From: a virus
Strand: one strand, 5' to 3'
Length of the DNA: 36,885 nucleotides
IMG/VR virus record: IMGVR_UViG_3300010883_000146
Location: 1 to 36,885 of that record
Part shown: piece by piece, positions 1,477 through 36,885 of the stretch
Position numbering within the stretch: the first letter of the stretch is position 1
How the letters are laid out: every line of letters starts with the position of its first letter
Program-made: the position numbers and the translations under genes
The notes under the pieces: generated by a model
Database searches by the model: none
What the model saw: only the letters and a program-made list of their open reading frames with translations
What the model was told of the DNA's origin: nothing

Positions 1477-1486
1477 TATATTTATA
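1477..1486 (+). promoter_or_regulatory. Putative phage late promoter (TATATTTATA)
   Basis: An exact copy of the recurring 10-mer, placed 10 nt after the terminator T-tract and 29 nt before the ATG at 1516, with a GGAG ribosome-binding site in between. The terminator-then-promoter arrangement supports a real transcription start for the hub operon. Confidence 0.7.
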
Positions 1487-1515: not shown

Positions 1516-1887
1516 ATGTTTAATGACGAAATATTCGAAGGTAAAAGCTTTTCTGACCTATTAAAGGAAATTCACACTAATTCTAAAAGAAAGGAAAAGC
1601 AAATAAATTCATTAATTGCACAACTACAACCATTGGTTAAAAATATAACTGATGCAACTATACTAGTACCACTAATAAAGGATTATTTAGATGTTGGTAT
1701 TAAAAATGACGACGCACTAATTAAAATGGCTGGAATAATACAGAGAGCCATGGTTAGATCAGAATCCGAAGGATCAGACTTTAATTTATCAGAAGATGAA
1801 AAAAAGCAACTATTAGACACCGTTAAAACAACAAGTAAGGTTGAATGGGAAGAAGAGTCTAAAGTACGCGATGCCAAGATCAAGTAA
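1516..1887 (+). CDS. Conserved helical protein upstream of baseplate hub genes
   Basis: The 123-residue product appears entirely alpha-helical and charged, with hydrophobic heptad-like spacing at about residues 10-85 ('SFSDLLKEIH', 'QINSLIAQLQPLVKNI', 'ILVPLIKDYLDV'), then an acidic-basic tail. No signal peptide, membrane segment or enzymatic motif is visible. It is first in the hub operon, after a promoter-like motif, and its last 17 nt overlap the start of the first hub paralog, suggesting translational coupling. I recognise the pattern as a protein often found near hub genes in marine T4-like phages but know no function. A structural or assembly role fits the context. Confidence 0.7.
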   Translation: MFNDEIFEGKSFSDLLKEIHTNSKRKEKQINSLIAQLQPLVKNITDATILVPLIKDYLDVGIKNDDALIKMAGIIQRAMVRSESEGSDFNLSEDEKKQLLDTVKTTSKVEWEEESKVRDAKIK

Positions 1888-4159
1888 TTCACAAAATAAA
1901 GTAGCTACACAAAGAACGACTGCTAATAAAACATTGGATAGTAAAATATCTAAGGCATTAGGACAATCGGCAGAAGTTGTGGATATTATTCTAGACCCAG
2001 GCCATCCTGCATGGTCGCCATCCCAATATCCAAGCAGGAAAATAGGTGATATATTGGCTAGACCTTTATTAGAATTTAATAAGACAACCGATCAACTACA
2101 ATGGTATCACCCTTTATTTCCAAACTTTTTTGCAGGATATCCCCTTATAGGCGAAATACTACTACTAGTTGAAGGGGCTGGAGAATCAACAACCAAATCA
2201 TACACTGGTAAAAACCTATATTATTTACCAAGTATAAATGTTTGGAATGACCCAAATAATAATCAATTGCCTGCTTCAAGCTTTGATATAAACTTGTTAA
2301 GTGAAACCCCATCGGAAGCAGAAAACTGTAATCCTTCGGGACAGTTTACAGCAGAACCAGGAACAGAAAAAGAAGCTGTAGATTTAACGCCGGCTCTTGG
2401 TAGAACTTTTCAAGATATGCCAATAATGAGATTACAACCATATGAAGGAGACGTAATGTTTGAAGGTAGAAACGGTCAAAGTTTGAGATTTGGTAGTACT
2501 TTTAAAACTGGTCTTTCTCCTAATTTTTGGTCTGCTGGTGGTGCAAATGGTGATCCAATAATAATAATGAGTACTGGCCATAGGCCTGGAACAAAGGATA
2601 AAAACGAATCTAATATACCTATAGTTAACCACATAGAAGACCCAAATCAAGACGCTGCAACAATGTTCATGTGCAGTGGTAATAGTGTAGATCTTCAACC
2701 GGCTTCAGATAATTGGGACTCATATGAGGTAACGTATGAATCAAAAATAAATGAAGAAAGAGAAGAAGAAGGATATGCTCCAACTCCTGCCCCAGAACCA
2801 TTTAAATCTAAACCAGCCGAAGAAGCTTCAGAAGAAGAAGAACCACCTGTAAAAGAAGATGAGCCTTGTCCTGAATGTCCAGATGGATCGATCCCTAAAA
2901 AGGATACTGCTGGAGATTGCTCACCCTGTGAAAAAGCATTAAAAGAAGAAAAGGCCAGAAAAGAATCTATAGTTGCTGAAGAAAATAAAACAAAGGACCA
3001 TACTTGTGGATTAGATAGAAGCTTTAGTAAATCTTTATGTATGCAAATAGTAAACGATACCATTGCTGGTGGAGGTTCAAAAAAATATACAGATCTTGGC
3101 TGGATGGAAGAAAAATGGAAACTAAAACCTGGAGGGTTTAACTCTGGAGGTGGAGAATGTTGGGTAGGTATACTACATTGGACAGGTAAATCTACTTCAA
3201 CACTATATAAAGGTATGGAAAAAGAAGGTCTAATTAAAAAATATTGGCCTGAGCCAGTTAAAATACCAAGTAAAAATACAGCTAAAGGCTGGTACTATGA
3301 CGGAACGTATGCTGGAAAAACTGTAACCATAACCTATGACGTATTAAGAGACTTCTGTAAGCATGCTGGTTATAAAGAATTAAATTACCCATGGTGGGCT
3401 GATGCAATGCAAAAATATGTAAGTAATTCTGGTGATGCAAGGAGATCACAAAGAAGAGGGGTATATGAAAAATTTGGATCAAAGGTAAAGGATATGAGTG
3501 CAAGGGCCGAAGCAGCTGGATATCCTCCCTTCCAAACAGCCAGAGAATACGCAATGTTAATGTTTCATTTGAATTCTTACGGGGCTCCCCTTTATTCAGA
3601 TGACTTTTTTAAAGACCAGGAAAGTTGGGGTACAAGACTAAGTTGGGATTCTGAAGAATTATTAAAAATATATTGTGGAGGAATGGTTAAAGGTAAAACA
3701 AAAGACGGAAACCAATCTGACACCCAACAAATAGCTTGTTGTAGGAGTAGGTGTAGTCTCCTGCATAAAAAATATCCACCATGTAAGTGCACTCTAGATC
3801 CTAATAATGTACATTATAAACCATGGATATGGGGCGGATGTGGTGGACCTAGGAGATCTAGCTTGGATGGTTCTGGTGGAACAAATAAGGATAATTGGCA
3901 AGGTGCAAAATGCACAGTTACAGAATATACTGGTGCAGGTGTTGGAGATGTACCACCACTTGCAGATGGATCTCCAGGCGAATGTGCAGATCCTAATTTT
4001 GATAAAGGATTAGATGGTTGGAAATGCATGAATCAAGAAGATTTTTGTACATGGGCAAATGCTTTTTTTAGAAACGTTAATAGGTCTTTTGGTTTTCAAC
4101 AAAGCCTATCTAGTGAAGATAAGGAACTACTAACAGACAGAACAAGGAAGTGTGAATAA
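1871..4159 (+). CDS. Baseplate hub protein, gp5/VgrG-like, paralog A (Cys-rich, lysozyme-like middle)
   Basis: I choose ATG 1871 over ATG 1841 because the product then starts MPRSSNSQNK, matching the MGRSGNSQNK and MGRFKNSKNK starts of the next two paralogs; this gives 762 residues. Residues ~35-290 form the shared hub module: 'AEVVDIILDPGHP', 'WYHPLFPNFF', 'EAENCNPSGQ' and 'PYEGDVMFEGRNGQSLRFGS' (from ~190). An acidic linker follows, with paired cysteines C333-x2-C336 and C350-x2-C353 that could bind a metal. The middle region contains 'GGECWVGILHWTGKS', reminiscent of the (A/G)xxQWTG motif of phage tail lysozymes, and several Trp and Cys residues. Unlike paralogs B and C it lacks their common C-terminal module and ends in its own Cys-rich region with 'TWANAFF'. 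A cell-wall-cleaving role is inferred. Its stop overlaps the next start (TAATG). Confidence 0.75.
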   Translation: MPRSSNSQNKVATQRTTANKTLDSKISKALGQSAEVVDIILDPGHPAWSPSQYPSRKIGDILARPLLEFNKTTDQLQWYHPLFPNFFAGYPLIGEILLLVEGAGESTTKSYTGKNLYYLPSINVWNDPNNNQLPASSFDINLLSETPSEAENCNPSGQFTAEPGTEKEAVDLTPALGRTFQDMPIMRLQPYEGDVMFEGRNGQSLRFGSTFKTGLSPNFWSAGGANGDPIIIMSTGHRPGTKDKNESNIPIVNHIEDPNQDAATMFMCSGNSVDLQPASDNWDSYEVTYESKINEEREEEGYAPTPAPEPFKSKPAEEASEEEEPPVKEDEPCPECPDGSIPKKDTAGDCSPCEKALKEEKARKESIVAEENKTKDHTCGLDRSFSKSLCMQIVNDTIAGGGSKKYTDLGWMEEKWKLKPGGFNSGGGECWVGILHWTGKSTSTLYKGMEKEGLIKKYWPEPVKIPSKNTAKGWYYDGTYAGKTVTITYDVLRDFCKHAGYKELNYPWWADAMQKYVSNSGDARRSQRRGVYEKFGSKVKDMSARAEAAGYPPFQTAREYAMLMFHLNSYGAPLYSDDFFKDQESWGTRLSWDSEELLKIYCGGMVKGKTKDGNQSDTQQIACCRSRCSLLHKKYPPCKCTLDPNNVHYKPWIWGGCGGPRRSSLDGSGGTNKDNWQGAKCTVTEYTGAGVGDVPPLADGSPGECADPNFDKGLDGWKCMNQEDFCTWANAFFRNVNRSFGFQQSLSSEDKELLTDRTRKCE

Positions 4160-6633
4160 TGGGAAGATCAGGAAACTCACAAAATAAAACACAGGTTAAT
4201 CGGCCAGGAGCAGCCAATCGCTCAGCAGCTTCTGCAATAACTAAAATAATAGAAACTGCAGAAGTTATAGATGTTGTAATGGATCCAAGCCACCCTAACT
4301 ACTCTCCAGCATCTGGAATAGTTATAGGTGCAATAAAGGCTCGACCATTATCAAGATTTAATAATCCTATAGAAAATTTATCATGGTATCACCCATACTT
4401 TTCTAATTTCTATAGCCAGTACCCATTAATAGGTGAAAACGTTGTATTAATAACTGCTGCTGGTAAGGGTAATTCAAAAAATCCAAATTTAGACGAAAAG
4501 TATTATTTACCGCCTATTAATGTTTTTCAAGACGCAAATCACAATCAAAATCCAGGAATAAGCATAAGTAAACCTTTAGATCCAAGTGAGGCAGAAGACT
4601 GTAATCCATCAGGACAATACACATCTAACCCTGGTACAGAAAAAGAAGAAGGAGAAGCAGGTGATGTAGAATTAGGAAAAACTTTTGAACCAAAAGATTT
4701 AATAAAAATATTCCCATATGAAGGTGATACTATATTGGAAGGTAGGTTTGGTCAAAGTATGAGATTTGGAAGTACTTCCAAGTTTGCAGATACTCCAAAT
4801 TATTGGTCGGCTGAAGGGAAAAATGGTGATGCAATAACAATAATAAGTAACGGCCATAGCGTACCTGAAGATTCTGAATTCCATTTGGAAGATATTAATA
4901 GAGATTCTGCGGTTATAATGTATTGTGAAGGACAATTAATACCTATTTCAGTTGCTTCTGAATTGTGGGATTCTTACGGAGTAACGTTTGAAAGAAAGGA
5001 TGCAGAACAAAAAGCATTGGATTTTGTAAATGATAAAGAAATTGAAAAACACCCAGAAATAGACGAAAACCTTGAAGATACAGGAGGAGAAAATAAAGAT
5101 GATGCCTGTGAGGACGGGTATATATTGGATGAGGAAGGAGAATGTGTTAAGGAAGAAAACGTAGTTGAAGAAGAAGAACCATTTGAAGCAAATACAGACG
5201 TAAGAGGAACAGTTAAAAATTGTTGGGATGCAGATGAAGCAAATGGTAACGATAAAAGAAAATTACTACTAAAAGAAATGGTTGATGATTTAATAGCAAA
5301 TGGTGCCACACCAGAAGGTGCATGTGCATTAATTGGAAATGCGCTTGCAGAAGGTGCCGGACCAGTATGTAATTCTCCAGCAAGTAAAGATCCAGGAGAA
5401 GCTGTTAAAGCCTCATTGAGAAATTTAGAAAAATGGAGAACTGGTAATAAAGTAAAGTCAAATCAAAACGCGTATTGGAATGGTAAAAAAACAATTGAAA
5501 AGGGTGGTAAAGTTTGTGACGAAGGTTGTTGGTGCGGTGTTGGTGCATTTGAAGTAGATACAGTATATTCACTTGACGGTAAAAAATATGGCCCAAACCA
5601 AACAAGCCAATATTCTAGATATTCTAATTGGCAAGGCGGAATAGGAATAATACAGTGGACAGGTACTAGAAGAACCAAATTTGAAATAGCACTTGGTATT
5701 CCAGCATATAATGATGGAACAGGTGGAATTATGTGGCCAAAAACTAGTATGGGTAAAGGTGGAGGAGGAAAATGGAAAAGTGGTAAACTTATTAAAGCAC
5801 CATCCCCAATTAATTTTACACCAAAACCACATAACCGGTCAGAATATAATAGAGCAATAGAAAACGCAAGATATAAGGGCAGTAAGCCTGGCCTAAATGC
5901 CCAATTAGTTTATGCAATGGAAGAAATGAAATCTAGAAATAATAGTGTGTATGTTCTGGTAACAACAAGTAGAGATATAGGCAAAATAACCCACGAAATA
6001 TATGCTAAATATGAAACCCCAACGTCATATGTTAGGGGCGGCCCAAATGGTAACAATAGAAAGGGAATATCAAATCACCCTAAAAAGGGCAACACTTATC
6101 AAGATTACTATGAGTACTCGGTAAAAAAACGTACTGAAAATGCTGAAGATACACTTATAACTTGGAAAGGTTTTCTTTTTGTCCCAGAAATAGAACCATC
6201 AGTTGCCGTAAATACAAGTGTACAACCTCCCACGCCAGTTGTTGTGGTATTGGGAAGAGCAGATGGACACACAGAAATTGAAGTGTATAAAGGTTTTATT
6301 ATAGCACAAGAAGATACAGCAGAAGAAGATTATAGAGAAATAAATGATAATCCAGCAAGTTACTTTTTTAAAGTAGAAAATAGTTTTTTACCTGGCTCTG
6401 GATTAGACGGTATAACAGATAAGCAAGGATTTAAAGATCACATGGTAAAAACTGGCGGACCCTTAAAATATCATTTACAAACAAATATAAGAAGTGGCCA
6501 ATCTGTACCACATATGGAAGCTGGAAAAACTTTCCCAAGATCAGCACCGTTCGGGTCAGACGGTTATTTATTTGCAATAAAAAGAGTAATAGACGAAGAA
6601 ATAGAAGATTGGATAGACATGGAGAACTTTTAA
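4159..6633 (+). CDS. Baseplate hub protein, gp5-like, paralog B with phage-tail-lysozyme-like domain
   Basis: The 824 residues have the same N-terminal hub module as A and C (about 35-280: 'AEVIDVVMDPSHP', 'WYHPYFSNFY', 'EAEDCNPSGQ', 'PYEGDTILEGRFGQSMRFGS'). An acidic linker carries a shorter cysteine motif. Residues ~370-560 look like a phage tail lysozyme domain (Phage_lysozyme2 type): 'ALIGNALAEGAGPV' with candidate catalytic E398, then 'GIGIIQWTGTRRTKFE' (Q and W near 499-500), the usual GxxQWTGxRR signature. The last ~115 residues, from 'YKGFIIAQ' to 'EEIEDWIDMENF', form a module repeated in paralog C. T4 gp5 likewise carries a lysozyme in the hub, so this is the best candidate for local peptidoglycan cleavage during injection. 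The start overlaps the A stop by one base; C follows after 1 nt. Confidence 0.8.
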   Translation: MGRSGNSQNKTQVNRPGAANRSAASAITKIIETAEVIDVVMDPSHPNYSPASGIVIGAIKARPLSRFNNPIENLSWYHPYFSNFYSQYPLIGENVVLITAAGKGNSKNPNLDEKYYLPPINVFQDANHNQNPGISISKPLDPSEAEDCNPSGQYTSNPGTEKEEGEAGDVELGKTFEPKDLIKIFPYEGDTILEGRFGQSMRFGSTSKFADTPNYWSAEGKNGDAITIISNGHSVPEDSEFHLEDINRDSAVIMYCEGQLIPISVASELWDSYGVTFERKDAEQKALDFVNDKEIEKHPEIDENLEDTGGENKDDACEDGYILDEEGECVKEENVVEEEEPFEANTDVRGTVKNCWDADEANGNDKRKLLLKEMVDDLIANGATPEGACALIGNALAEGAGPVCNSPASKDPGEAVKASLRNLEKWRTGNKVKSNQNAYWNGKKTIEKGGKVCDEGCWCGVGAFEVDTVYSLDGKKYGPNQTSQYSRYSNWQGGIGIIQWTGTRRTKFEIALGIPAYNDGTGGIMWPKTSMGKGGGGKWKSGKLIKAPSPINFTPKPHNRSEYNRAIENARYKGSKPGLNAQLVYAMEEMKSRNNSVYVLVTTSRDIGKITHEIYAKYETPTSYVRGGPNGNNRKGISNHPKKGNTYQDYYEYSVKKRTENAEDTLITWKGFLFVPEIEPSVAVNTSVQPPTPVVVVLGRADGHTEIEVYKGFIIAQEDTAEEDYREINDNPASYFFKVENSFLPGSGLDGITDKQGFKDHMVKTGGPLKYHLQTNIRSGQSVPHMEAGKTFPRSAPFGSDGYLFAIKRVIDEEIEDWIDMENF

Positions 6634-6634
6634 T

Positions 6635-8914
6635 ATGGGAAGATTTAAAAATTCAAAAAATAAGAGTAAAAGTAGCAAAAGAAAAAACAACGCTAAATCA
6701 AGACAGCCCACTGTAACGGCAAACAAGTCATTTGCATCGGCTGAAGTTATAGATGTTGTATTAAACGATGAACACCCAAGCTATAATCCAGCAGCATATA
6801 TTAATATTGGAGCAGTAAAAGCCAGGCAATTAAAGTCAGAGTTTGGTGTGCCCGATAATACATTGCAATGGCATAACCCTTTATTTGGAACGGGCCTTTG
6901 GATTACCCCATTAATAGGGGAGATTGTACTATTGGTTTCTGCGGCTGGTAAAAAATCCCAGACTGACAATAAGGTTACTGAACTATATTATCTACCACCA
7001 ATAAATATTTGGCAAGACACCAACCACAACCAATTGCCTGGCTCGAGCTTCATGATAAACTCAGGAACAGAAACAGATGAAACATCAGAGGCAGAAGACT
7101 GCAACCCATCAGGCCAATATTCTGCAAATCCTGGAACAGCAAGAAGCGAACTACCAGTAATACCGTTGGGTAAAATATTCACTGAAAAAACTATCCAAAA
7201 ACTTTTTCCTTATGAGGGTGATATTTTGTCAGAAGGAAGATCTGGTCATAGTATACGGTTTGGTAGTACTGTAAAAAATACTGAATATCCTAATTGGTGG
7301 TCCACTACTGGTGAAAACGGTGATCCTATAATTATTATAAGTGATGGTCACTCCCCAACTGGTGGAGAATTTACTATTGGTGAAACTACTTATGATAACC
7401 CATATAAGTTAGAAGACCCAAATAATGATAGTGCAGTTGTAATATTAACACACTCCCAAACTATACCAATTGAAATATCATCTACCGTTGGTAATAATAT
7501 ACGACAAGATTCTTATGGCAACTCCCCGTCAAATAAAAAACAAAAAGAAACTACTTTAGACTATAAAGAGGTAATAGACAAAAAAGAAGCAGAACAAGAA
7601 CCAGATGTTGTTGATGATAGGGATCAAGATGTAAAAGAAGAAGCAAAGGCCTGCCCTGAATGCTCAGACGGATCGATCCCTGATAAAGATGCAGAAGGTG
7701 TATGTATGCCGTGCAAAAAGGAAGAAGAATCAAATTCTGATGATAGTGAAATATATGACGTTGTAATAGGTGCATCAATTGCCCACAAAGTTGCAGAAAG
7801 AATAGGTAATGGTTGGTCAGAAGATACTCCTGAAGGTTCTTATGGGAGAAGTAAACCCAATGCATTCCCTAGAGAAGTTGAAGCGTCTTGTAAAAATTAT
7901 CCTGGGGATTTAACTGGATTAAACGTTATACTAAGTTCTGGGCTAGAAAACTTTATGGGCCCAGCCCTAGTTCACGTATACGAAATGCTACCAGCTTACA
8001 AACTAATTACTTTAAATTATGATGGAACATTTAAGCGATCAATACATCCTAAAGACATATATGATACACTAACACAAGATTTAGTTATTGATAAGACAAA
8101 AAATAAAGATTTTAATATAGATGAACCCTTAGACAGTTCAGACTGGAATATAAGTCAAACAGACCAAGGTATGAGAGATAGATTTACCAAAACAATACAA
8201 GATTATGCAGCTGCTGGTGCAGACAATAGAAATGGAAATAGTATTTTGATTGCAATGGATATACTAAAAGAAAGAGGTGTAGGTTCAATAAAATTAACTG
8301 GTGTAGGTAATTATTGGGCAAATACTCCTGGATATCCAGATTATAATTTATTTCTACAAGAATTAGCAGATCAAATAGACATATGTACATTTGTTGGTGG
8401 ATTTGATCAAAAACAGTCTGGTGCTGTACGTGGAGGAGATCCTGCAAATCTAGATGCATATAAAGACCAAATAAACGGTCAAGGAGTACCACCAATAACT
8501 ACTCCACCCCCAACTAAAAAGAAAAAATCAGGTTTTGATTTATATTACGAAAAGGTAGATACATATAAAGGATTTAACATTTGGCAAAGTCTTGATGCAG
8601 AAGAAACATATAAGGGTCATACTTGGGACGAACCCGCGGACTATCACTTTAAGCTTCAACGAAGCTTTGAGGCTGATACAGGCCTAAGTGGTATACAAGA
8701 TAAAGAAGGATTCCTAACGTCTGCACTAGAAAGTGGTGGGGGAATGGATTATCAAATGACGTCAAATATAAGAACAGGGCAATCCCTACCGCATATTTAT
8801 GCTGGAACAACTTTTCCAAAGGATGACCCGTTTAGTGAAGGCGGTTATTTATTTGCAATAAAGGCAGCAATAGACGAAGAAATTGAAGAATGGATAGACA
8901 TGGAGTCAATATAA
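6635..8914 (+). CDS. Baseplate hub protein, gp5-like, paralog C with SGNH-hydrolase-like domain
   Basis: The 759-residue protein has a basic N-terminus, the shared hub module ('AEVIDVVLNDEHP', 'WHNPLFGTGLW', 'EAEDCNPSGQ', 'PYEGDILSEGRSGHSIRFGS'), and a CxxC...CxxC linker like paralog A. From about residue 374 the middle differs: 'DVVIGASIAHKVAERIG' with S381 where SGNH/GDSL enzymes have GDSL, and 'VILSSGLEN' with N439 where they have GxND. A later 'GVGSIKLTGVGNYW' strand fits the same Rossmann-like order. At the position expected for the DxxHP catalytic pair I see 'GGDPANLDAY' (D602, P603) with no His, so activity is doubtful. The C-terminal ~115 residues repeat the paralog B module and end in EEIEEWIDMESI. 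This could deacetylate surface glycans or be a non-enzymatic binding domain. Confidence 0.75.
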   Translation: MGRFKNSKNKSKSSKRKNNAKSRQPTVTANKSFASAEVIDVVLNDEHPSYNPAAYINIGAVKARQLKSEFGVPDNTLQWHNPLFGTGLWITPLIGEIVLLVSAAGKKSQTDNKVTELYYLPPINIWQDTNHNQLPGSSFMINSGTETDETSEAEDCNPSGQYSANPGTARSELPVIPLGKIFTEKTIQKLFPYEGDILSEGRSGHSIRFGSTVKNTEYPNWWSTTGENGDPIIIISDGHSPTGGEFTIGETTYDNPYKLEDPNNDSAVVILTHSQTIPIEISSTVGNNIRQDSYGNSPSNKKQKETTLDYKEVIDKKEAEQEPDVVDDRDQDVKEEAKACPECSDGSIPDKDAEGVCMPCKKEEESNSDDSEIYDVVIGASIAHKVAERIGNGWSEDTPEGSYGRSKPNAFPREVEASCKNYPGDLTGLNVILSSGLENFMGPALVHVYEMLPAYKLITLNYDGTFKRSIHPKDIYDTLTQDLVIDKTKNKDFNIDEPLDSSDWNISQTDQGMRDRFTKTIQDYAAAGADNRNGNSILIAMDILKERGVGSIKLTGVGNYWANTPGYPDYNLFLQELADQIDICTFVGGFDQKQSGAVRGGDPANLDAYKDQINGQGVPPITTPPPTKKKKSGFDLYYEKVDTYKGFNIWQSLDAEETYKGHTWDEPADYHFKLQRSFEADTGLSGIQDKEGFLTSALESGGGMDYQMTSNIRTGQSLPHIYAGTTFPKDDPFSEGGYLFAIKAAIDEEIEEWIDMESI

Positions 8915-8936: not shown

Positions 8937-8946
8937 TATATTTATA
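8937..8946 (+). promoter_or_regulatory. Putative phage late promoter (TATATTTATA)
   Basis: Exact copy of the recurring 10-mer, 22 nt after the stop of hub paralog C and 19 nt before the ATG at 8966. An AGGAG at 8954-8958 lies between them. Confidence 0.7.
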
Positions 8947-8965: not shown

Positions 8966-9355
8966 ATGGCATATCAACCAATTCCGCCAGCAGAATACGC
9001 AGGCAAACAAGTTTTAATCAGCTCAAATAGAATACTATTTAATGCTAGAACTGACTCTGTTTTTCTGTTTTCAGAAAAATCTGTTGGAATATCAACAAAT
9101 GGAACGTTTAATGTTGATACTGGTGAAGATACTATAGTAAATAGTCCTGCAATTTATCTAGGTTTAGAAGCAGAAGAAAAAATGGTGTTAGGGGATACCC
9201 TTGTTGCATTAATAGAAGAATTATGCGATGCATTAGCTAAAGAAACCCATCCAACACCGAATGGACCTTCAGGACCCCCTATCAACGCTGCATCCTACTC
9301 CTCAATAAAGTCTAAAGCAAAATCAATTCTAAGCGCACAAAACTACACACTATAA
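8966..9355 (+). CDS. Baseplate spike / hub-tip-like protein
   Basis: I choose ATG 8966, 7 nt after AGGAG at 8954-8958; the in-frame ATG at 8948 would lie inside the leader next to the promoter motif. The 129 residues start 'MAYQPIPPAEYAGKQVLISS' and contain short strands such as 'RILFNARTDSVFLFSEKSVG' and 'NGTFNVDTGEDTIVNSP', typical of the C-terminal beta-helix of spike proteins. The tail has 'LGDTLVALIEELCDALAKE' and 'HPTPNGPSGPPINAA', a region often found at the end of gpV/gp5-type spike proteins. It follows three hub paralogs that end without an obvious beta-helix, so it may supply the needle part as a separate polypeptide. The role is inferred from pattern and position. Confidence 0.65.
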   Translation: MAYQPIPPAEYAGKQVLISSNRILFNARTDSVFLFSEKSVGISTNGTFNVDTGEDTIVNSPAIYLGLEAEEKMVLGDTLVALIEELCDALAKETHPTPNGPSGPPINAASYSSIKSKAKSILSAQNYTL

Positions 9356-10335: not shown

Positions 10336-10782
10336 ATGGCAAACAGGGAAATAATATCAAGCCCAGTAATAGACGACAATGAAGACATTGCTATTGGATT
10401 AACTTTACCATTTAATGGTGATGATAATGGGTTGTTTGAATTAAATTATTTTTCAATAGACCAGGCAATTGCCAATGTAAAAAACCTGTTACTTACTAGA
10501 AAGGGCGAAAGAATAAATCACCCTGAATTTGGTACTAATTTACAAGATTATTTATTTGAACCAAATTATCCTGAATTACGAGAAAAATGTGGAACAGAAA
10601 TAACAGAGGCAATAGAACAATGGTTACCCTACATAGTAATAAAAAAATTAGAAGTAAGAATACCAAATAACCAAGTTGGATTAGTAGATCCCCTACATGG
10701 AATATTAATTACCCTAAGTATTGGTTTAATAAACAACACAATAGATGAAAAAGAAATTGTGCTAGAGATAAAGGATATATAA
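10336..10782 (+). CDS. 25: Baseplate wedge protein gp25
   Basis: The 148 residues match the GPW/gp25 family: an N-terminal region leading to 'SIDQAIANVKNLLLTRKGER', then 'NHPEFGTNLQDYLFEPNYP' holding the conserved (G)ER..xPEFG motif, and a C-terminal 'ITEAIEQWLPYIVIKKLEV' helix-strand pair. T4 gp25 has 132 residues. In the T4 baseplate gp25 joins gp6 and gp53 in the wedge core next to the tail sheath. The following gene, 1 nt downstream, is gp6, as expected for partners. The start has only a weak ribosome-binding site, suggesting coupling to the upstream gene. Confidence 0.93.
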   Translation: MANREIISSPVIDDNEDIAIGLTLPFNGDDNGLFELNYFSIDQAIANVKNLLLTRKGERINHPEFGTNLQDYLFEPNYPELREKCGTEITEAIEQWLPYIVIKKLEVRIPNNQVGLVDPLHGILITLSIGLINNTIDEKEIVLEIKDI

Positions 10783-10783
10783 T

Positions 10784-12664
10784 ATGGGCCAAAAATTACA
10801 AATAAAGGATGTAAATTATCTAAATTTAGACTTTAAAGGGTTTAAAGATAAGCTTAATACTTTTTCAAGTGTATATTTTCCAGATATTTCCAATGACTTT
10901 AATGAATCTTCTCCAGGCCAAATGTTTGTTGAAATGTCAGCATATGTTGGAGATGTTTTATCTTATTATATTGATAATTCTTTAAGGGAAAGTTTATTAC
11001 TACATGCACAAGAAAGATCAAACGTAATGGATATATCAAAAGGATTAGGGTATAAACCGCTAGCGTCTGCTCCATCTATGGTAGATTTAGATGTTTATAT
11101 TCTATTACCTTCAAATGGAACTGGCAATGTTTCATCTCCAGATTGGAGATACGCACCACTAGTTCAAGAAGGAATGGTTGCCCAAACCAATGGTGAAGCT
11201 TCTCCATTTTTCACATTGGCCCCAGTAGATTTCAGATATTCTAGCTCAATGGATCCAACTGAAGTATCAATATATAAAATAGATGGAGATGGAAACCCTG
11301 AAACATATCTATTAAGAAAAAGCGTTACTGCAAAATCTGGTACAATAAAATATAAAAGTTTTAGTTTTCAAAGCCCTAAAAAATACGATAAAGTAATTAT
11401 AGGTGATAAAAATATTATTGAAATTTTAGATTGTAGAGATGGTGATGGTAATAGGTGGCATGAGGTAGATTATATAGCTCAAAATTTAATATATGAAGAA
11501 ACACAAAACACAAGAATAATAGATCCTGAATTTTCAAAATTTAAGGACGTGACTCCATATTTATTAAAATTAAGAAAAACTGGTAGAAGATTCACGTCAG
11601 ACTTAAACGCAGAACTAAAAACTGTAATAAATTTTGGAGCAGGAAATTCTAATATAGCTGATGAATTATTAATTCCTAATCCAGGCAATATGGGATTATC
11701 ATTACCATACGGTAATATTTCTAATCTAGACAATGCATGGGATCCACAAAATGCAATGTTTACAAGAGCATATGGACAAGCCCCTGCAAACCAAATATTA
11801 CAGTTTAAATATGTAGTTGGTGGTGGAATTAAGGACAATACAAGGGCGGGTACAATTAGAGAAGTTACGTCTGTAAACTTTAACCTGGATACCGACGGAT
11901 TATCTGGGCCAACAATACAATTTGTAAAAAAATCAATCGCTGTTAGTAATCCTGAACCAGCAACTGGTGGAAAAGGACTAGAATCAGTTGAAGAAATGCG
12001 ACAAAATGCAATGGCGTTTTATGCCGCCCAATCTAGAACAGTTACTAGGGAAGATTTTATAGCCAGATTGTATTCAATGCCTGCAAAATTTGGCAATGTT
12101 GCAAAGTGTTTTATTATACAAGATGAACAAATATCTCAAGAAACTGGTGTTGACTTGGTAAACCCTTTAGCACTAAACTTGTATATGTTATCATATAATC
12201 AAAGTGGTAATTTAACCCAAGCAAACTCTGCAACCAAGGAAAATGTAAGAAATTATCTAAGCAAATACAGAATGTTAACTGATGCAATTAATATAAAGGA
12301 TGGTTTTATTATAAACCTTGGTATAAATTATTCTATAATACCTTTACCAGGTTATAATTCTAGTGAAGTTATATTAAGAGTAAATAGGGTATTGGCAAGA
12401 ATATTTGATATTAGGAATTGGCAATTTAATGAGCCTATATTCTTAGCAAACATAGCAACTGAAATAGATAAGGTTGAAGGAGTACAAACTGCGCAATCAT
12501 TAGATGTATACTGTAAACATGAAGTAGCAAGTGGATATTCTGGTAATTTTTATGACGTAGGAGAAGCAACAAAAAATAAAATTGTTTATCCTTCACAGGA
12601 TCCTGCAATATTCGAAATAAAATTCCCAGCAATAGATATTAGAGGAAGGGTGGTAACCTACTAG
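10784..12664 (+). CDS. 6: Baseplate wedge protein gp6 (baseplate J-like)
   Basis: The 626 residues are close to T4 gp6 (660). The N-terminal part has the gp6/baseplate-J pattern 'FNESSPGQMFVEMSAYVGDV' then 'LSYYIDNSLRESLLLHAQER' near residues 45-85. A later block 'AFYAAQSRTVTREDFIARLY' (about 408) and 'PAKFGNVAKCFII' is the conserved J-domain core, and the C-terminus contains 'LPGYNSSEVILRVNRVLARI' with 'IANIATEID'-like packing. gp6 dimers form the inner ring joining baseplate wedges. It is adjacent to gp25 and followed after 9 nt by a structural gene with an AGGAG site. Confidence 0.93.
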   Translation: MGQKLQIKDVNYLNLDFKGFKDKLNTFSSVYFPDISNDFNESSPGQMFVEMSAYVGDVLSYYIDNSLRESLLLHAQERSNVMDISKGLGYKPLASAPSMVDLDVYILLPSNGTGNVSSPDWRYAPLVQEGMVAQTNGEASPFFTLAPVDFRYSSSMDPTEVSIYKIDGDGNPETYLLRKSVTAKSGTIKYKSFSFQSPKKYDKVIIGDKNIIEILDCRDGDGNRWHEVDYIAQNLIYEETQNTRIIDPEFSKFKDVTPYLLKLRKTGRRFTSDLNAELKTVINFGAGNSNIADELLIPNPGNMGLSLPYGNISNLDNAWDPQNAMFTRAYGQAPANQILQFKYVVGGGIKDNTRAGTIREVTSVNFNLDTDGLSGPTIQFVKKSIAVSNPEPATGGKGLESVEEMRQNAMAFYAAQSRTVTREDFIARLYSMPAKFGNVAKCFIIQDEQISQETGVDLVNPLALNLYMLSYNQSGNLTQANSATKENVRNYLSKYRMLTDAINIKDGFIINLGINYSIIPLPGYNSSEVILRVNRVLARIFDIRNWQFNEPIFLANIATEIDKVEGVQTAQSLDVYCKHEVASGYSGNFYDVGEATKNKIVYPSQDPAIFEIKFPAIDIRGRVVTY

Positions 12665-30068: not shown

Positions 30069-33000
30069 ATGGCAAAAATATTAAGGTTTGAAGAACCATC
30101 AAGTTTTTCACCAATATCATATAGAGGATTGGATCAATTACCTGTGTTCATTGCGGAGGAAGGGGGTATTTCATATGATTACTTTGGTTTTACTAATGTA
30201 CCAGATGAATTAACTGCTGGAAGAAATCTATTATCATTTACTGGTACAAAAAACCTATTACCAGGTGCAGAAATTGCAATAGAAGTTTTAGATGCAAATG
30301 GTAATTTAATACCCACAACAACACATGACCACATAGGATTTGGTAATGAGCGCGTATTTTCTATAGAGGTAGATGATAAAGTACCAGAAGGAGATGCATT
30401 AATTTCTGTTGTAAGTATTGCAAAAGGAAAGGTTGCATATAACGCGCAATCTCAAAAAGATATATCCCAATCACCCCCAGCAAACTTTAGAAGTAGGTTT
30501 AATATTCGCTGGCAAAAAAGATTAAATTGTTCTCCTAGAAAAAGAAATGTTTCTGACATTGTTTTCTTTCCAAACCCAGATATAACAATAAACGAGGTTA
30601 AACGACCATATTTTAAATTACACTATAATTCTCAACTAACTAGTTCTTATGGAACAGTACCAAATAGTGGATCGGAATTTTCTCTTGTATCTACATCATC
30701 AATTTCAGATACAGGTTTCCAAAATACATCTGCTAGTTTAAGATATGAGGTTCAAGGTGATAGATATTATATCTTTTGTGATGATAACCCAGATTTTGGT
30801 GGGTTTACTGATGATATGGTTGGTGGAATAATATACTTTCCAAATCCTAAAGGTGTATATCCTAGTTCAACATTTGGACCATTTGCTAATCCAGCATATA
30901 ACGCACTAGAAGATGGAGACGGCCAGGGAGAACTAGATTCAGGATCAGCAACTGCCCAATATAAAAACCAAGGGGCGTACAATACATATATAATGGAAAG
31001 ATTATCTCCATTACAAGTTAGAGTAAATAGTCCACATACAACCTTCCAAGGATTTGGCAGAGCAAATGAGCAAGAGGTTTTTCATCAAAAGTTTTCATAT
31101 AGTGATTTTAGATTAGATTGGGCACAATCACCAGTATCTAGAAGTAATCCATTAGCAACTTCAGATAATGAGATGAATACATCTTACGCAAAAATTTCTT
31201 TTAATAATCTTACACCATTAGTTGGAGATGTTAGTAGAATAAAAACATATATACGAAGTGATCAAACGGTTGGTGATTATTTTTTAGTTGGTGATAACCC
31301 TGTATCTGCTCCTGAATTACTTGTTCAAAGTAGTTCAAAGTTTGACGGTATACCAGCTGGAGATTTTTCTCCATTTGGCGTTAGTGAATCTTTTTCTTCA
31401 TACTGGACAGCATCTGGAGCAGACTCAACCCTAGCAGGTCCTGTAATATTACCATTTACTCCAAGTCTATCAACCCTAGCTAATCCAATGCCTGAAGCAT
31501 TACAAATCGGTGATTCTAATACTGCAACTGGTACAGTATTAAATAATATAAATTACTGGATGGTAGAATCAAATGTACCAATGGTTCTTCAAAAAGATAA
31601 ATACTATCAAGTAACGTTTAAATCCTTTGCGTTTAGAAATGCAGCATCAACCTTCAGCCCTAATCTTGAAGTGTATATAGGTGGACCATCTGTAATAGAC
31701 AGCGGCAATAATATAGGAAAACAAATAGGTGTAATAGAAGACGTATCTATAGGAGAATTTATATCAGAAGAAGATAGTTACGATCAATATATATCTAAAG
31801 GGACAAAATTTACTTTTAAAGCAGATGCCACGGAATTTGGTTTTCTTAAATTTAAAATAAATCATGGTTTATGGTACTTATCAAATATTTCTGTAAAACC
31901 CTTTGATAAGTTTGGATATACTCCCCACTATTATGAAACAATAATACCTACACCAAAGGCTAATGTTGCAACTAAAGATGCACTAGATTTTAAGTTTGAA
32001 TTTTACAATGATGACCATAGAAAAGCAACTTATGTTTCTGAAATAAGAAACGTTGAATTTGATAACGAGTTTGTATTTACTGCAACAAGTGTAGTTTTCA
32101 CAAGCGCTAGTGTAGAAAACTGGTTTGGTGGTACCCCAATTGGTGATGACGATTGGGTAAGACCAGGTTTTCTTACTGCAGTTGCTGCTGAAGACCAACC
32201 TGCGCTAACCGAAAGCATATATCATAGTGGATCTGTTGGTATGGGAGATTTTAGTTCTACTGCGGTTCAATACCCGTTACATATAAAAAGAGGTGATAGG
32301 GGCGGAAATACAACCATAAAATTAGAATCTTATTCTGCATCAATACTACATCTAGCGGCTGATGTTGCAGGAACAGGCCCAGCAAGTAGAAGTGCACATA
32401 TTGTATTTGATCAAAATAATGCTGCAACTTCGTCAATAATAGGATATACAGATAAACAAGACTTGGATCCAGGTGGAGCAGCAATGGATGGCGTTACCCA
32501 GGGAAGTTTTGTTATACACGAAAGAAATGCGCGAGTATTAGCACTTGGTGTTGGTGGAACAACACCATTACAAATTACAACTGGTAAATCTTCAACCTTT
32601 AGAAATGCAGGTTATGGTGGAGTTTTCATAGGTCATAGGCATGTTCAACCAGGTTCGTATGATCATGAATTAGATGTTTCTGGTAGTATCCTTGTTAACA
32701 GTGGTAGTATATTTTTACCCGACCTACATGTTACAACAAGTGCTGGTGTAGGTTATTTATTGGGTTCTCACGGATCTGACGGCGAAACAAAAAAGGTAGA
32801 ATTATCTGGGCTAATAAATGACCTAGATTGGCATGTTCAACCAACATATATTTCACAATCTAGAATAGTTGGAACAAGTGGTAGAACTGTGTTTATTGGT
32901 GATAATCATGACGTAAATAATACAATAGCTCCAAATTCATATATATTTCAAATATCACAAAGTGGAACAGCACCAAGACTAAAATTTGAAGGTATACCTC

Positions 33001-36000
33001 AATCAACAGTAACCCATTTACTTGGTGTTGATGTAAATGGAAATATTTTTGTTACAGAATCAGCTGCTGTTGGAGGAACAAATTCTAGTGGTGGTGGAGA
33101 TGACGGCGATTGGCATATACATAGTGATGGTATCTTAACTGGATCAAGAGATGTTCAATTAACTGGTTCGATATCAATGTCAGGAGTACTTCATGCATCT
33201 AAAATACATGCAGGATTTGCCCCAGATGGTGACGGAAATATAGGACAGGGACCATATCAGAGTAACGTAGGAAATGACGTACATACTCTTGAAGGTTCAT
33301 TATTTGTTGGAGAAATGGCCTTTAGTGGACAGCCTACAACAATAAAAGGTGGAGCAGAGTCCCTTATTGTAGGAAAACAAAATCACATGGGTACTTCTAA
33401 TGCCAGAGCATTAATGGTTGGGTTTCAAAATTCACAGTCTGGCACAGGCCATGCTAGTGTAATACTTGGTACCAGTAATGAAAATATTAATGGAGACCAA
33501 TCACTGTTGATAGGTTCAGGCAACTTTAATAATGGTGCTGATGTTAGTGCACTAATTGGACAATATAACAACACAACCAACCAAGGCCTACAGTATTCTA
33601 TAGGTGTTGGTTTAGAAGCTTCTGGATCCCTTGGTGGTCAAGTCTTTCTTGGAAGATATAATACAAAAACCTCAACAAAGGCAATGCTTACTGTTGGTGG
33701 TGGAGATAATGATGGAAGTAGATTAGATCTTTTTACAGTTAACCAAGCATCAATACACAACCACGTACCAACTGTAGTTTCCATGTCAGAAGACGGTTTC
33801 GGCCTAGGTATAGGTATATTTCCAGAATACCCACTTGACGTAAGAGAATTAGAATCACAACACGATCCAGTAAGAATACGAACACTTAATAAACGTGCTG
33901 GTCGCCCTGTTACATACGACCCAGCTTCTGGAATACTCACATACACTGACGGTACCATAAAAGAACCTGTAAAATTTGGTAATGCAATGTTCAACGTTTT
34001 ATTTTTACAACCAGCATCTCCAACAATGCAATTTATATCTGGATCCCTTCAACTTATATCTAGTACAGCAACTACTAGTTCAAATGAAGGATACTATACT
34101 GGCTCTGCAATAATTGGAGAGGTAAAAACAGACCCCCTTGACGATAATAGCTTTTATATATCTAGTTCACTTAATACTTCTGCCAGCATATACTTTTCAG
34201 GATCAGGCCAAGTTGGTATAGGAACAACTAATCCTCAATCAGATTTTGAGGTAGTAGCAGATGAAGTTAAATTTGTACAAAGATCAACTGATACTGGTCT
34301 TAGAATAAACAAAGAAGGTAACATAGAATCATTTGCAAACTCAACAGCAGCAGCTGGAACAGGAAGTGAGGTAATATTAAAGTACAGTAGGGGTACTGGC
34401 CTTGCTGCGATTAAGCCAATCGCTGGTGATATTATTGGAGCAATTAGATTTGTCGCAGACTCAGGTTCTCAAATAAACCCAAAACTTAACCCAAGAGGTG
34501 GTGGAGACGCTGGTTCTATAAAATTAATTGTTGCTGGCTCAACCCCAGATGGTGTAACGGGCAAACTGGCTATTAGTCTACCTGCCGATCCTGGTGACAG
34601 CGCGCAGGAAATGTATACCATAGACGGTGCAACACAAAAACATGAATTTACAGGTAGTGGTGGATTTAACTTTAAAGGAAATATAGTAACTCAAAACAAT
34701 ATAAGTGCAAGTGGTAATGTCACAGCTACAAAAGGTATATTCGGTACAGGTACAACAACAATTGACGATGATATACAAACAACAGGTAATATAAGTGCAA
34801 GTGGTAATTTAATTATAGAAGGATTTATATCAGCATCTTCAATAAATTCTACAATAATATCTTCATCTGTATTATACTCAAGTGGTTCGAACATATTTGG
34901 TGATGAAATAGCAGATACACACACATTTATAGGTAACATAACATCATCAGGTAATATAAGTTCAAGCGGAAATATATATGCACAAGATTACTATGACGAC
35001 GGTGTAAACATAAATACTATATATGTCCAGAATTCTCAAACAGGTTCATTTCTAAACAGTGGGATAATTAGTAGTTCTCAACACACATTTACTGCATTAA
35101 CCTCTTCTGGTGGTATAACAGGAATATCAGGTTCATTTGGGCCTGTAAATATAACAAGTACTGCAAATTCAACTGGTACTACATCTCATGCAGCTCTAAA
35201 AGTTGCAGGTGGTATATCAGTAGCTGAAAAAATAAACACCAAGCATTTAATTGTTTCACAAGATTTAGCTGTTGGTAATAATGCAATACTTGGAAATGGA
35301 GCAAACGACCAAATTCAAATGCATGGAACCGTAACAACAAATATAAACTCCAATGCTAATATAAGCGCAAGTGGCAATATATATGCAGCAGATTACTATG
35401 ATGACGGTATAAACATAGATACTATATACGTTAAAAACTCTCAAACAGGATCATTCCTAAATACTGGAATTGTTAGTAGTTCTCAACATATATTTACTGC
35501 ATTAACCTCTTCTGGTGATATAAGTGCAAGTGGAGATATAGTAGCAGGTAATTTAGAAGTACCAACTGGTGGTAAAATTATTATAGATGGTAATTCAGCT
35601 GGGGCTTACATAGATTCTCCTGGTATAAATCAAATTGATTTTAGTGTAGCAAATACACAAAGAATGTTATTAACACATAACTTAGCTAAAATAAATACTG
35701 ATGTCCAACTTGGTCTTCAAAGTACTAATTATGTTAAAGTTTTAGGTCACCTAACGTCATCGGGTAACATAAGTGCAAGTGGAAATGTTTATGCACCAGA
35801 TTATTACGATGATGGTGTAAATATAAATACTATATATGTCCAGAACTCCCAAACAGGTTCATTTCTAAACAGTGGGATAATCAGTAGTTCTACTCAATTA
35901 CCTAGTGGAATAATTAGTAGTTCACTTTCATTTGTACAAAACTCCGCAACAACTTCGTTTGTTCAAAACTCTGCAACCTTATCGTTTGTACAGAATTCTC

Positions 36001-36885
36001 AAACAGGATCATTCCTAAACAGTGGAATAATTAGTAGTTCTGCACAATTACCTAGCGGAATAATTAGTAGTTCTTTATCATTTGTACAAAATGCATCTAC
36101 ACTATCATTTGTACAAAATGCCTCCACACTATCATTTGTTCAGAATTCAGCAACAACTTCATTTGTACAAAATGCATCTACTAGTTCTTTTGTTCTTAAC
36201 TCCCAAACAGGTTCATTTCTAAACAGTGGGATAATTAGTAGTTCACAGCATATATTTACTGCATTAACCTCTTCTGGTACTATAAGTGCAAGTGGTGTAA
36301 TAAAGGGATATCAACTACATTCAGCTGGAGGTATATACCCCAATGTAGGTGTTGGTACTGGTGTGATTAAAGCTTTATCTGATAATTCAATTCAAATATC
36401 TCAAAAACTTTATGTTCATAGTGATGCCATTGGAAGTGGTGGTGGTCACATACATGCAACAGGTAACATAACAGCCTCAGGTGCTATAAGTTCAAGTGGA
36501 GATATTACAGCGGATAAAATACTAGTTAATAATTTAGATGTTATAGATACAGTTGATAGTTCACCTACAGTAGTACGATTTGGTCTTGATGCCGATCTGA
36601 CTGCTATTGAAATAGGTAGAAGTAATTCCCCAACTAAAAATATTTCATTATTTGGACCAGTAACAGCCTCAAGTAATATAAGTGCAAGTGGCGGTGTTTT
36701 TGCACAAGATTACTATGACGACGGTGTAAATATAAATACTATATATGTTCAGAACTCCCAAACAGGTTCATTTCTAAACAGTGGAATAATTAGTAGTTCT
36801 GCACAATTACCTAGCGGAATAATTAGTAGTTCTTTATCATTTGTTCAAAACTCATCAACTAGCTCATTTGTACAGAATTCCCAAA
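30069..36885 (+). CDS. Giant repetitive tail-fibre/structural protein (3' partial)
   Basis: The frame starts at ATG 30069 behind TTGGAG and stays open to the window edge, giving at least 2,272 codons. The N-terminal ~190 residues ('MAKILRFEEPSSFSPISYRG', then 'FGFTNVPDELTAGRNLLSFT') look like a conserved particle-binding region and include 'NFRSRFNIRWQKRLNCSPRK'. The middle holds several beta-sandwich-like regions. Fibre motifs then appear: 'HELDVSGSILVNSGSIFLP' near codon 870 and 'VGIGTTNPQSDFEV' near codon 1382. From ~34700 at least nine 'NISASG'-like units occur, with four copies of a 31-residue 'DYYDDGVNINTIYVQNSQTG' unit and nonapeptide arrays. This resembles trimeric marine phage fibres that bind host surfaces. 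No C-terminal chaperone or adhesin tip is seen because the gene is cut. Minus-strand open frames over it are shadows. Confidence 0.85.
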   Translation, partial: MAKILRFEEPSSFSPISYRGLDQLPVFIAEEGGISYDYFGFTNVPDELTAGRNLLSFTGTKNLLPGAEIAIEVLDANGNLIPTTTHDHIGFGNERVFSIEVDDKVPEGDALISVVSIAKGKVAYNAQSQKDISQSPPANFRSRFNIRWQKRLNCSPRKRNVSDIVFFPNPDITINEVKRPYFKLHYNSQLTSSYGTVPNSGSEFSLVSTSSISDTGFQNTSASLRYEVQGDRYYIFCDDNPDFGGFTDDMVGGIIYFPNPKGVYPSSTFGPFANPAYNALEDGDGQGELDSGSATAQYKNQGAYNTYIMERLSPLQVRVNSPHTTFQGFGRANEQEVFHQKFSYSDFRLDWAQSPVSRSNPLATSDNEMNTSYAKISFNNLTPLVGDVSRIKTYIRSDQTVGDYFLVGDNPVSAPELLVQSSSKFDGIPAGDFSPFGVSESFSSYWTASGADSTLAGPVILPFTPSLSTLANPMPEALQIGDSNTATGTVLNNINYWMVESNVPMVLQKDKYYQVTFKSFAFRNAASTFSPNLEVYIGGPSVIDSGNNIGKQIGVIEDVSIGEFISEEDSYDQYISKGTKFTFKADATEFGFLKFKINHGLWYLSNISVKPFDKFGYTPHYYETIIPTPKANVATKDALDFKFEFYNDDHRKATYVSEIRNVEFDNEFVFTATSVVFTSASVENWFGGTPIGDDDWVRPGFLTAVAAEDQPALTESIYHSGSVGMGDFSSTAVQYPLHIKRGDRGGNTTIKLESYSASILHLAADVAGTGPASRSAHIVFDQNNAATSSIIGYTDKQDLDPGGAAMDGVTQGSFVIHERNARVLALGVGGTTPLQITTGKSSTFRNAGYGGVFIGHRHVQPGSYDHELDVSGSILVNSGSIFLPDLHVTTSAGVGYLLGSHGSDGETKKVELSGLINDLDWHVQPTYISQSRIVGTSGRTVFIGDNHDVNNTIAPNSYIFQISQSGTAPRLKFEGIPQSTVTHLLGVDVNGNIFVTESAAVGGTNSSGGGDDGDWHIHSDGILTGSRDVQLTGSISMSGVLHASKIHAGFAPDGDGNIGQGPYQSNVGNDVHTLEGSLFVGEMAFSGQPTTIKGGAESLIVGKQNHMGTSNARALMVGFQNSQSGTGHASVILGTSNENINGDQSLLIGSGNFNNGADVSALIGQYNNTTNQGLQYSIGVGLEASGSLGGQVFLGRYNTKTSTKAMLTVGGGDNDGSRLDLFTVNQASIHNHVPTVVSMSEDGFGLGIGIFPEYPLDVRELESQHDPVRIRTLNKRAGRPVTYDPASGILTYTDGTIKEPVKFGNAMFNVLFLQPASPTMQFISGSLQLISSTATTSSNEGYYTGSAIIGEVKTDPLDDNSFYISSSLNTSASIYFSGSGQVGIGTTNPQSDFEVVADEVKFVQRSTDTGLRINKEGNIESFANSTAAAGTGSEVILKYSRGTGLAAIKPIAGDIIGAIRFVADSGSQINPKLNPRGGGDAGSIKLIVAGSTPDGVTGKLAISLPADPGDSAQEMYTIDGATQKHEFTGSGGFNFKGNIVTQNNISASGNVTATKGIFGTGTTTIDDDIQTTGNISASGNLIIEGFISASSINSTIISSSVLYSSGSNIFGDEIADTHTFIGNITSSGNISSSGNIYAQDYYDDGVNINTIYVQNSQTGSFLNSGIISSSQHTFTALTSSGGITGISGSFGPVNITSTANSTGTTSHAALKVAGGISVAEKINTKHLIVSQDLAVGNNAILGNGANDQIQMHGTVTTNINSNANISASGNIYAADYYDDGINIDTIYVKNSQTGSFLNTGIVSSSQHIFTALTSSGDISASGDIVAGNLEVPTGGKIIIDGNSAGAYIDSPGINQIDFSVANTQRMLLTHNLAKINTDVQLGLQSTNYVKVLGHLTSSGNISASGNVYAPDYYDDGVNINTIYVQNSQTGSFLNSGIISSSTQLPSGIISSSLSFVQNSATTSFVQNSATLSFVQNSQTGSFLNSGIISSSAQLPSGIISSSLSFVQNASTLSFVQNASTLSFVQNSATTSFVQNASTSSFVLNSQTGSFLNSGIISSSQHIFTALTSSGTISASGVIKGYQLHSAGGIYPNVGVGTGVIKALSDNSIQISQKLYVHSDAIGSGGGHIHATGNITASGAISSSGDITADKILVNNLDVIDTVDSSPTVVRFGLDADLTAIEIGRSNSPTKNISLFGPVTASSNISASGGVFAQDYYDDGVNINTIYVQNSQTGSFLNSGIISSSAQLPSGIISSSLSFVQNSSTSSFVQNSQ
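34986..35078 (+). repeat. 31-codon fibre repeat, copy 1
   Basis: A 93-bp in-frame unit encoding 'DYYDDGVNINTIYVQNSQTG' followed by 'SFLNSGIISSS'. Nearly identical copies lie at 35391, 35799 and 36708. A 'FTALTSSGG' segment follows this copy. Confidence 0.85.
35391..35483 (+). repeat. 31-codon fibre repeat, copy 2
   Basis: The same 93-bp unit with several substitutions (GIN-ID-TIYVKN and FLNTGIVSSS). It is the most diverged of the four and is followed by 'FTALTSSGD'. Confidence 0.85.
35799..35891 (+). repeat. 31-codon fibre repeat, copy 3
   Basis: The same 93-bp unit, encoding the same peptide as copy 1 with mostly synonymous changes. It is followed by 'TQLPSGIISSSL' and a nonapeptide array. 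Confidence 0.85.
35928..36008 (+). repeat. Nonapeptide array, three 27-bp units
   Basis: Three consecutive 27-bp units encode SFVQNSATT, SFVQNSATL and SFVQNSQTG. The consensus S-F-V-Q-N-(S/A)-x-T-x has hydrophobic F and V at fixed spacing, as expected for a repetitive fibre shaft. Confidence 0.85.
36015..36085 (+). repeat. 71-bp exact direct repeat, copy 1
   Basis: This stretch starts CTAAACAGTGG and ends TCATTTGT. It is identical by eye to 36774-36844, with no synonymous differences, which points to recent duplication or gene conversion. It encodes 'LNSGIISSSAQLPSGIISSS' and following residues. Confidence 0.85.
36078..36212 (+). repeat. Nonapeptide array, five 27-bp units
   Basis: Five in-frame 27-bp units encode SFVQNASTL twice, then SFVQNSATT, SFVQNASTS and SFVLNSQTG. 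They are the same family as the array at 35928; a third, partial array begins at 36837 and runs off the window. Confidence 0.85.
36708..36800 (+). repeat. 31-codon fibre repeat, copy 4
   Basis: The 93-bp unit again, encoding the same peptide as copies 1 and 3. It overlaps the second copy of the 71-bp exact repeat. Confidence 0.85.
36774..36844 (+). repeat. 71-bp exact direct repeat, copy 2
   Basis: Identical by eye to 36015-36085 and 759 bp downstream, a multiple of three, so recombination between the copies would delete or add 253 codons in frame. Confidence 0.85.

Follow-up and report, generated by a model that had tools for sequence, protein, structure and literature searches.

Three tandem gp5-like hub paralogs with different payloads suggest a heterotrimeric spike base in a phage

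Phage spikes of the gp5 type are described as homotrimers, and the locus analysed here raises the question of how a phage would use three different hub genes in a row. The window, which is the whole stretch of DNA analysed, comprises positions 1 to 36,885 of the IMG/VR record IMGVR_UViG_3300010883_000146 (36,885 nucleotides), for which a close annotated phage was not found. An earlier note on this DNA had pointed to three adjacent genes, and three neighbouring open reading frames, all on the plus strand, were indeed found there and are referred to as hub paralogs A, B and C. The start of A is placed at the ATG at 1871, which matches the A orthologs; the TTG at 1841 is merely the start of the longest frame. 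The array and its surroundings are arranged as follows:

1516 to 1887, plus strand: open reading frame of 123 amino acids upstream of A, overlapping the start of A by 17 nt
1871 to 4159, plus strand: hub paralog A, 762 amino acids
4159 to 6633, plus strand: hub paralog B, 824 amino acids, its ATG sharing 1 nt with the stop codon of A
6635 to 8914, plus strand: hub paralog C, 759 amino acids, starting 1 nt past B
8966 to 9355, plus strand: predicted needle protein, 129 amino acids, homologous to the C-terminal part of the single-gene hubs of other phages
10336 to 10782, plus strand: baseplate wedge protein gp25
10784 to 12664, plus strand: gp6-like baseplate wedge protein

Since gp25 and gp6 are encoded downstream, the A-B-C array sits in a baseplate cluster. 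In the phage Mel-JY01 (L010), a 134-aa protein ahead of the hub resembles the 123-aa frame, as judged by eye. Elsewhere in the window, the open reading frame at 706-1116 encodes a small protein without a PHROG match, which by eye has the look of a signal peptide followed by an outer-membrane beta-barrel, and 136-aa frames occupy the matching position in the relatives L005, L007, L008 and L009. An open frame at 30069-36884 codes for more than 2272 amino acids with repeated FVQNSQTGSFLNSGIISSS-like units, runs off the end of the record and is, from its sequence, likely a tail fibre.

The three proteins have an N-terminal module of about 300 residues in common, with an identity of 42-48% in the multiple alignment of the N-modules. 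In pairwise BLASTP comparisons of the N-terminal 300-370 or so amino acids, A and B are 46% identical (E 1e-76), B and C 43% (E 9e-74), and A and C 39% (E 1e-71), and every motif quoted in the earlier note does exist. The modules are located at:

1871 to 2770, plus strand: gp5-like N-module of A, with OB-like strands at residues 32-118 and the EGDxxxEGRxGxSxRFGS block
4159 to 5025, plus strand: gp5-like N-module of B
6635 to 7567, plus strand: gp5-like N-module of C

Past the N-module, the homology reaches into a Cys motif, CPEC(P/S)DGSIP.KD..G.C..C, which is found in A and C and is degenerate in B. It lies between the base module and the payload (residues 333-353 in A, about 340-361 in C) and could possibly form a disulfide or metal knot.

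Searches of Pfam and PHROG gave no match for the N-module family, and a PDB sequence search with the hub profile gave nothing meaningful. The structural comparison was made with AlphaFold models that are weak (mean pLDDT 57 for A and 59 for C), in which five strands are predicted at residues 32-118 of the N-module. For both weak models, P1 Gp5 (9vzk chain q, from the P1 baseplate) came first among the PDB fold matches, with E 0.004 and a probability of 0.94 for C and E 0.14 and a probability of 0.63 for A, and neither model had a PDB fold match with E below 0.001. The second match of the C model was a chain from a Streptomyces contractile-injection baseplate. An hhalign comparison of the N-module with T4 gp5 relatives gave P of about 0.01-0.07 over 28-40 columns at the start of the OB region, which is too weak if taken alone. 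The proposal that the shared module is gp5-like is thus supported by the modelled folds, while at sequence level its resemblance to T4 gp5 is marginal. P1 gp5 is a T4 gp5-like needle protein that is encoded by one gene and has no lysozyme domain (PMC9024508).

The earlier note had described the three genes as sharing both ends. This holds for the N-terminus of all three; the C-terminus is shared by B and C only, as a module of about 120 amino acids with 51% identity (E 7e-35, pairwise BLASTP), and A lacks it. Its two copies are:

6268 to 6630, plus strand: C-terminal module of B, common with C
8546 to 8911, plus strand: C-terminal module of C, common with B

The middle regions show no match between any two of the three proteins, which agrees with the different middle domains proposed before. 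These regions, referred to as payloads, are:

2993 to 3859, plus strand: payload of A, predicted lysozyme-fold/GH46-like, with Glu429 in GGECWVGILHWTG invariant in nine copies
5272 to 5682, plus strand: payload of B, Phage_lysozyme2 (PF18013), residues 372-508, with Glu398 invariant in orthologs
7742 to 8479, plus strand: payload of C, alpha/beta, failing the SGNH residue test

The payload of B, which had been called tail-lysozyme-like, matches Pfam PF18013 with E 3e-8 and 34.2 bits (cut-off 28.2), and its ortholog in L009 matches the same family with 35.7 bits; by sequence family it is clearly a tail lysozyme. For A, the suggestion of a lysozyme-like domain stands as far as structure is concerned. 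The best structural matches of this payload are a viral model without known function (E 8e-12) and a BFVD phage model annotated as GH46 (TMt 0.53, probability 0.75), and the A model has weak structural matches to T4-type lysozymes. A match to a sequence family was not obtained, Pfam searches with the payloads of A and its orthologs giving none, and the invariant Glu429 has no assignment to a catalytic position. The A payload therefore likely has a lysozyme fold according to the models, and its activity is predicted. The SGNH-like domain that had been suggested for C was given up. Its topology is suggestive by eye; the motifs are absent and a fold match was not found. The position of the catalytic Ser reads GAS, GGY or GDA in the orthologs where a GDS-like motif is required, and the conserved His is absent across orthologs in the region of the C-terminal DxxH. 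Since no family match was obtained and neither the Ser nor the His position is conserved, the assignment was dropped; Pfam searches across the orthologs, PDB sequence searches and fold searches all gave no match for this payload. PDB sequence searches with profiles of the A and C payloads gave nothing meaningful, and neither payload gave a tblastn match in 50,697 phage records. In viral contigs, all matches to the three payloads belong to contigs of the triplet clade or to short fragments bearing the same needle gene.

In order to place the array among its relatives, viral contigs were searched with an N-module profile, which detected at least 489 related stretches, and the 80 best of these were retained. 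Among the matches listed, all ten contigs covering the region carry exactly three copies in the order A-B-C, so that the question raised before, whether related genomes keep three copies, can be answered positively for them, and the same 129-aa gene follows wherever the contig reaches that far. As L007 and L008, and likewise L016 and L095, are near-duplicates, these ten contigs represent about eight lineages, and loss of a copy was seen in none of them among the matches listed. Another 67 distinct relatives were seen with a single hub, and 27 of these are flanked by at least 2.4 kb on either side. By searches of whole records, the phage Mel-JY01 (190 kb) and a 484-kb phage record, which belong to these relatives, each have one hub copy, as opposed to three in the triplet contigs. 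In the phylogenetic tree, the A modules form one clade (99/98), as do the C modules (100/99); the B modules form one clade (100/99) with seven of eight sequences, the exception being L016_B, which has no firm position in the tree. Together, the 23 triplet modules group at 82/94 and adjoin the single-copy contigs L017-L027. The paralogs thus cluster by position across phages, which means that all three have been kept since they split, and the simplest reading of the tree is a single triplication of one ancestral gene.

Between this record and its relatives, dN/dS lies at 0.03-0.25 in almost every part of the three hub genes (0.36 for C past residue 290 in the comparison with L008) and at 0.01-0.04 in the needle; by these sequence comparisons, A, B and C are under purifying selection. 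A recent or redundant duplication without functional consequence would be in line with the general observation that tandem paralogs are common in the structural gene clusters of phages, yet the event appears to be a single old one, the paralogs have stayed apart over deep divergence, they carry different payloads and their dN/dS is low, which makes such a duplication very improbable.

In the single-hub relatives, the payload slot is occupied by a VanY (E about 1e-12), amidase_2 or M15 peptidase domain, which is either fused to the hub or encoded by a gene of its own that lies between those of hub and needle; L018, L019 and L024 have one VanY payload each. Wall-degrading domains on spike proteins are accordingly represented by Phage_lysozyme2 in B and by VanY, M15 and amidase in relatives. 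The single hub of L074 (3081-5474, 798 amino acids) is without a recognised payload family. In simple relatives, including Mel-JY01, the base module is fused to a C-terminal part that is homologous to the 129-aa protein (35%, E 5e-21), and every such needle-fused phage seen has no payload between hub and needle. Since its homology is to the C-terminal half of hubs that are encoded by one gene, the 129-aa protein, which the earlier note had called a spike protein, is most likely the needle, and the split between hub and needle often occurs at the level of genes in the A/B/C hub family.

The spacing of the genes differs along the array. In all triplets, the A-B junction measures -1 to +3 nt and the B-C junction -1 to +11 nt, and this tight spacing indicates that the three proteins are made in a coupled manner. 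The gap between C and the needle gene is wider: eight distinct triplets have 44-62 nt here, whereas hub and needle genes lie -8 to +14 nt apart in 36 single-hub phages. A promoter-like motif was found in this gap and ahead of the array:

1479 to 1486, plus strand: promoter-like TATTTATA in the context CTATATTTATAG, 29 nt ahead of the 123-aa gene leading into A-B-C
8939 to 8946, plus strand: promoter-like TATTTATA in the 51-nt gap between C and the needle gene, at -27 from the needle start

The motif at 1479 is found at the same place in the triplet relatives and in most single-hub sister contigs; it is preceded by a strong terminator-like hairpin at 1431-1456 (10 pairs, 7 of them G-C, followed by T-rich DNA). 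Ahead of the needle, TATTTATA is present at -27 or -28 in all nine triplet contigs, and near the needle in one of 24 single-hub phages, L074 being the sole case. As the triplets form one clade, the needle motif counts as one evolutionary event and not as nine. More generally, TATATTTATA-type motifs lie upstream of genes on the plus strand at 579, 1479, 8939, 9819, 20083 and 30037 and are kept at the same places in relatives, and six of the eight plus-strand TATTTATA sites fall within about 870 nt of intergenic DNA, for which 0.5 would be expected from its composition. A scan for sigma-70 promoters performed no better than on shuffled sequences. The TATATTTATA-type motif is probably the late promoter of the phage, and the needle leader with its motif fits a needle supply that is matched to A+B+C, the promoter being predicted from the motif.

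These observations can be combined into a spike assembly. A trimer has three positions, and three genes without losses, made by coupled synthesis and followed by a separately controlled needle, are most economically accounted for by a heterotrimer. A heterotrimeric spike base (A:B:C) on a homotrimeric needle is therefore our best reading of the genomic evidence; proposed from the genes, it is in our judgement somewhat more probable than all else. The needle motif, which is shared by descent, also fits mixed homotrimers, i.e., alternative AAA, BBB or CCC spikes in each virion or in a subset, giving a mixed population for different hosts or wall types. With a paralog identity of 37-48%, each protein may have kept its self-assembly, the evidence on needle dosage is equally compatible, and payloads can be exchanged between slots: the C-position hubs of L016 (5962-8208) and L095 (9647-11893) carry an A-type payload, the base module being retained when a payload changes slot. 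However, dispensable alternatives would allow loss, and no lineage among the matches listed has lost a copy; nor is there any sign of switching or of individual promoters for the three genes, which are spaced -1 to +11 nt apart, and we regard such homotrimers as unlikely. One paralog might also be the spike base and the other two accessory enzyme carriers at different sites of the baseplate or tail tip, given that A lacks the C-terminal module of B and C and the three are thus not equivalent. This placement appears distinctly unlikely, because the conserved base module is under purifying selection in all three and it is in the triplet phages alone that the needle gained a promoter-like leader, suggesting more needle per hub.

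Under the heterotrimer, one ancestral gp5-like spike-base gene would have been tripled once to give A, B and C, each keeping the base module that would lie between tail tube and needle, with a GH46/lysozyme-fold payload on A, a tail lysozyme on B and an alpha/beta domain without SGNH catalytic residues on C. One copy of each (1:1:1) would occupy the three positions of the spike base, a homotrimer of the needle, made from its own gene, would sit below it, and a single contraction would bring several wall-active domains into contact with the peptidoglycan. We infer the trimer composition and the delivery from the genes. For the stricter version, in which the heterotrimer is obligate, each paralog brings a distinct wall-active payload and the homotrimeric needle is supplied by its own promoter, we see about even chances.

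VgrG proteins are fusions of gp27-like and gp5-like parts. With VgrG1, VgrG2 and VgrG3, the type VI secretion system of V. cholerae has three paralogous spike proteins, two of which carry an effector domain at the C-terminus, and a VgrG heterotrimer is reported as required (PMC8668125), whereas a later study on Aeromonas dhakensis put the need down to multiple effectors and not to the heterotrimer as such (PMC8668125). Unlike the phage spike, this is a bacterial secretion system, whose effectors hit competitors instead of opening the wall for DNA. In T4, gp5 is cleaved between Ser351 and Ala352, between lysozyme and needle, and the mature spike is (gp27-gp5*-gp5C)3 (PMC3004832). A base module, of OB type in T4 and predicted to be so in the A-B-C phages, a wall-cutting domain and a needle are found in both cases, and the separate needle gene of the A-B-C phages resembles the cleaved state of T4; however, T4 has one gene and a homotrimer, and the A-B-C phages have three base genes with different payloads and one needle gene. 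The hub protein gp15 of Anabaena phage A-1(L) also brings more than one hydrolase activity to the tail hub (PMC10966104), but both activities reside in one protein of a homotrimeric hub without paralogs. Close as well are the Microcystis phage Mel-JY01 and the IMG/VR contigs L017-L027, which have the same base-module family with gp25 and gp6 nearby and differ in having one hub gene, with the needle fused (Mel-JY01) or separate. A phage example of a mixed three-paralog spike, an arrangement proposed for type VI secretion, was not found in the open-licence papers.

The triplet clade represents a natural experiment in which the base module was kept, the payload was swapped (L016) and needle expression was apparently re-set. 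If the heterotrimer is true, several distinct wall-active domains could reach their target in one tail contraction, and gene triplication would have made a symmetric phage machine asymmetric, in parallel to the VgrG heterotrimers proposed for type VI secretion.
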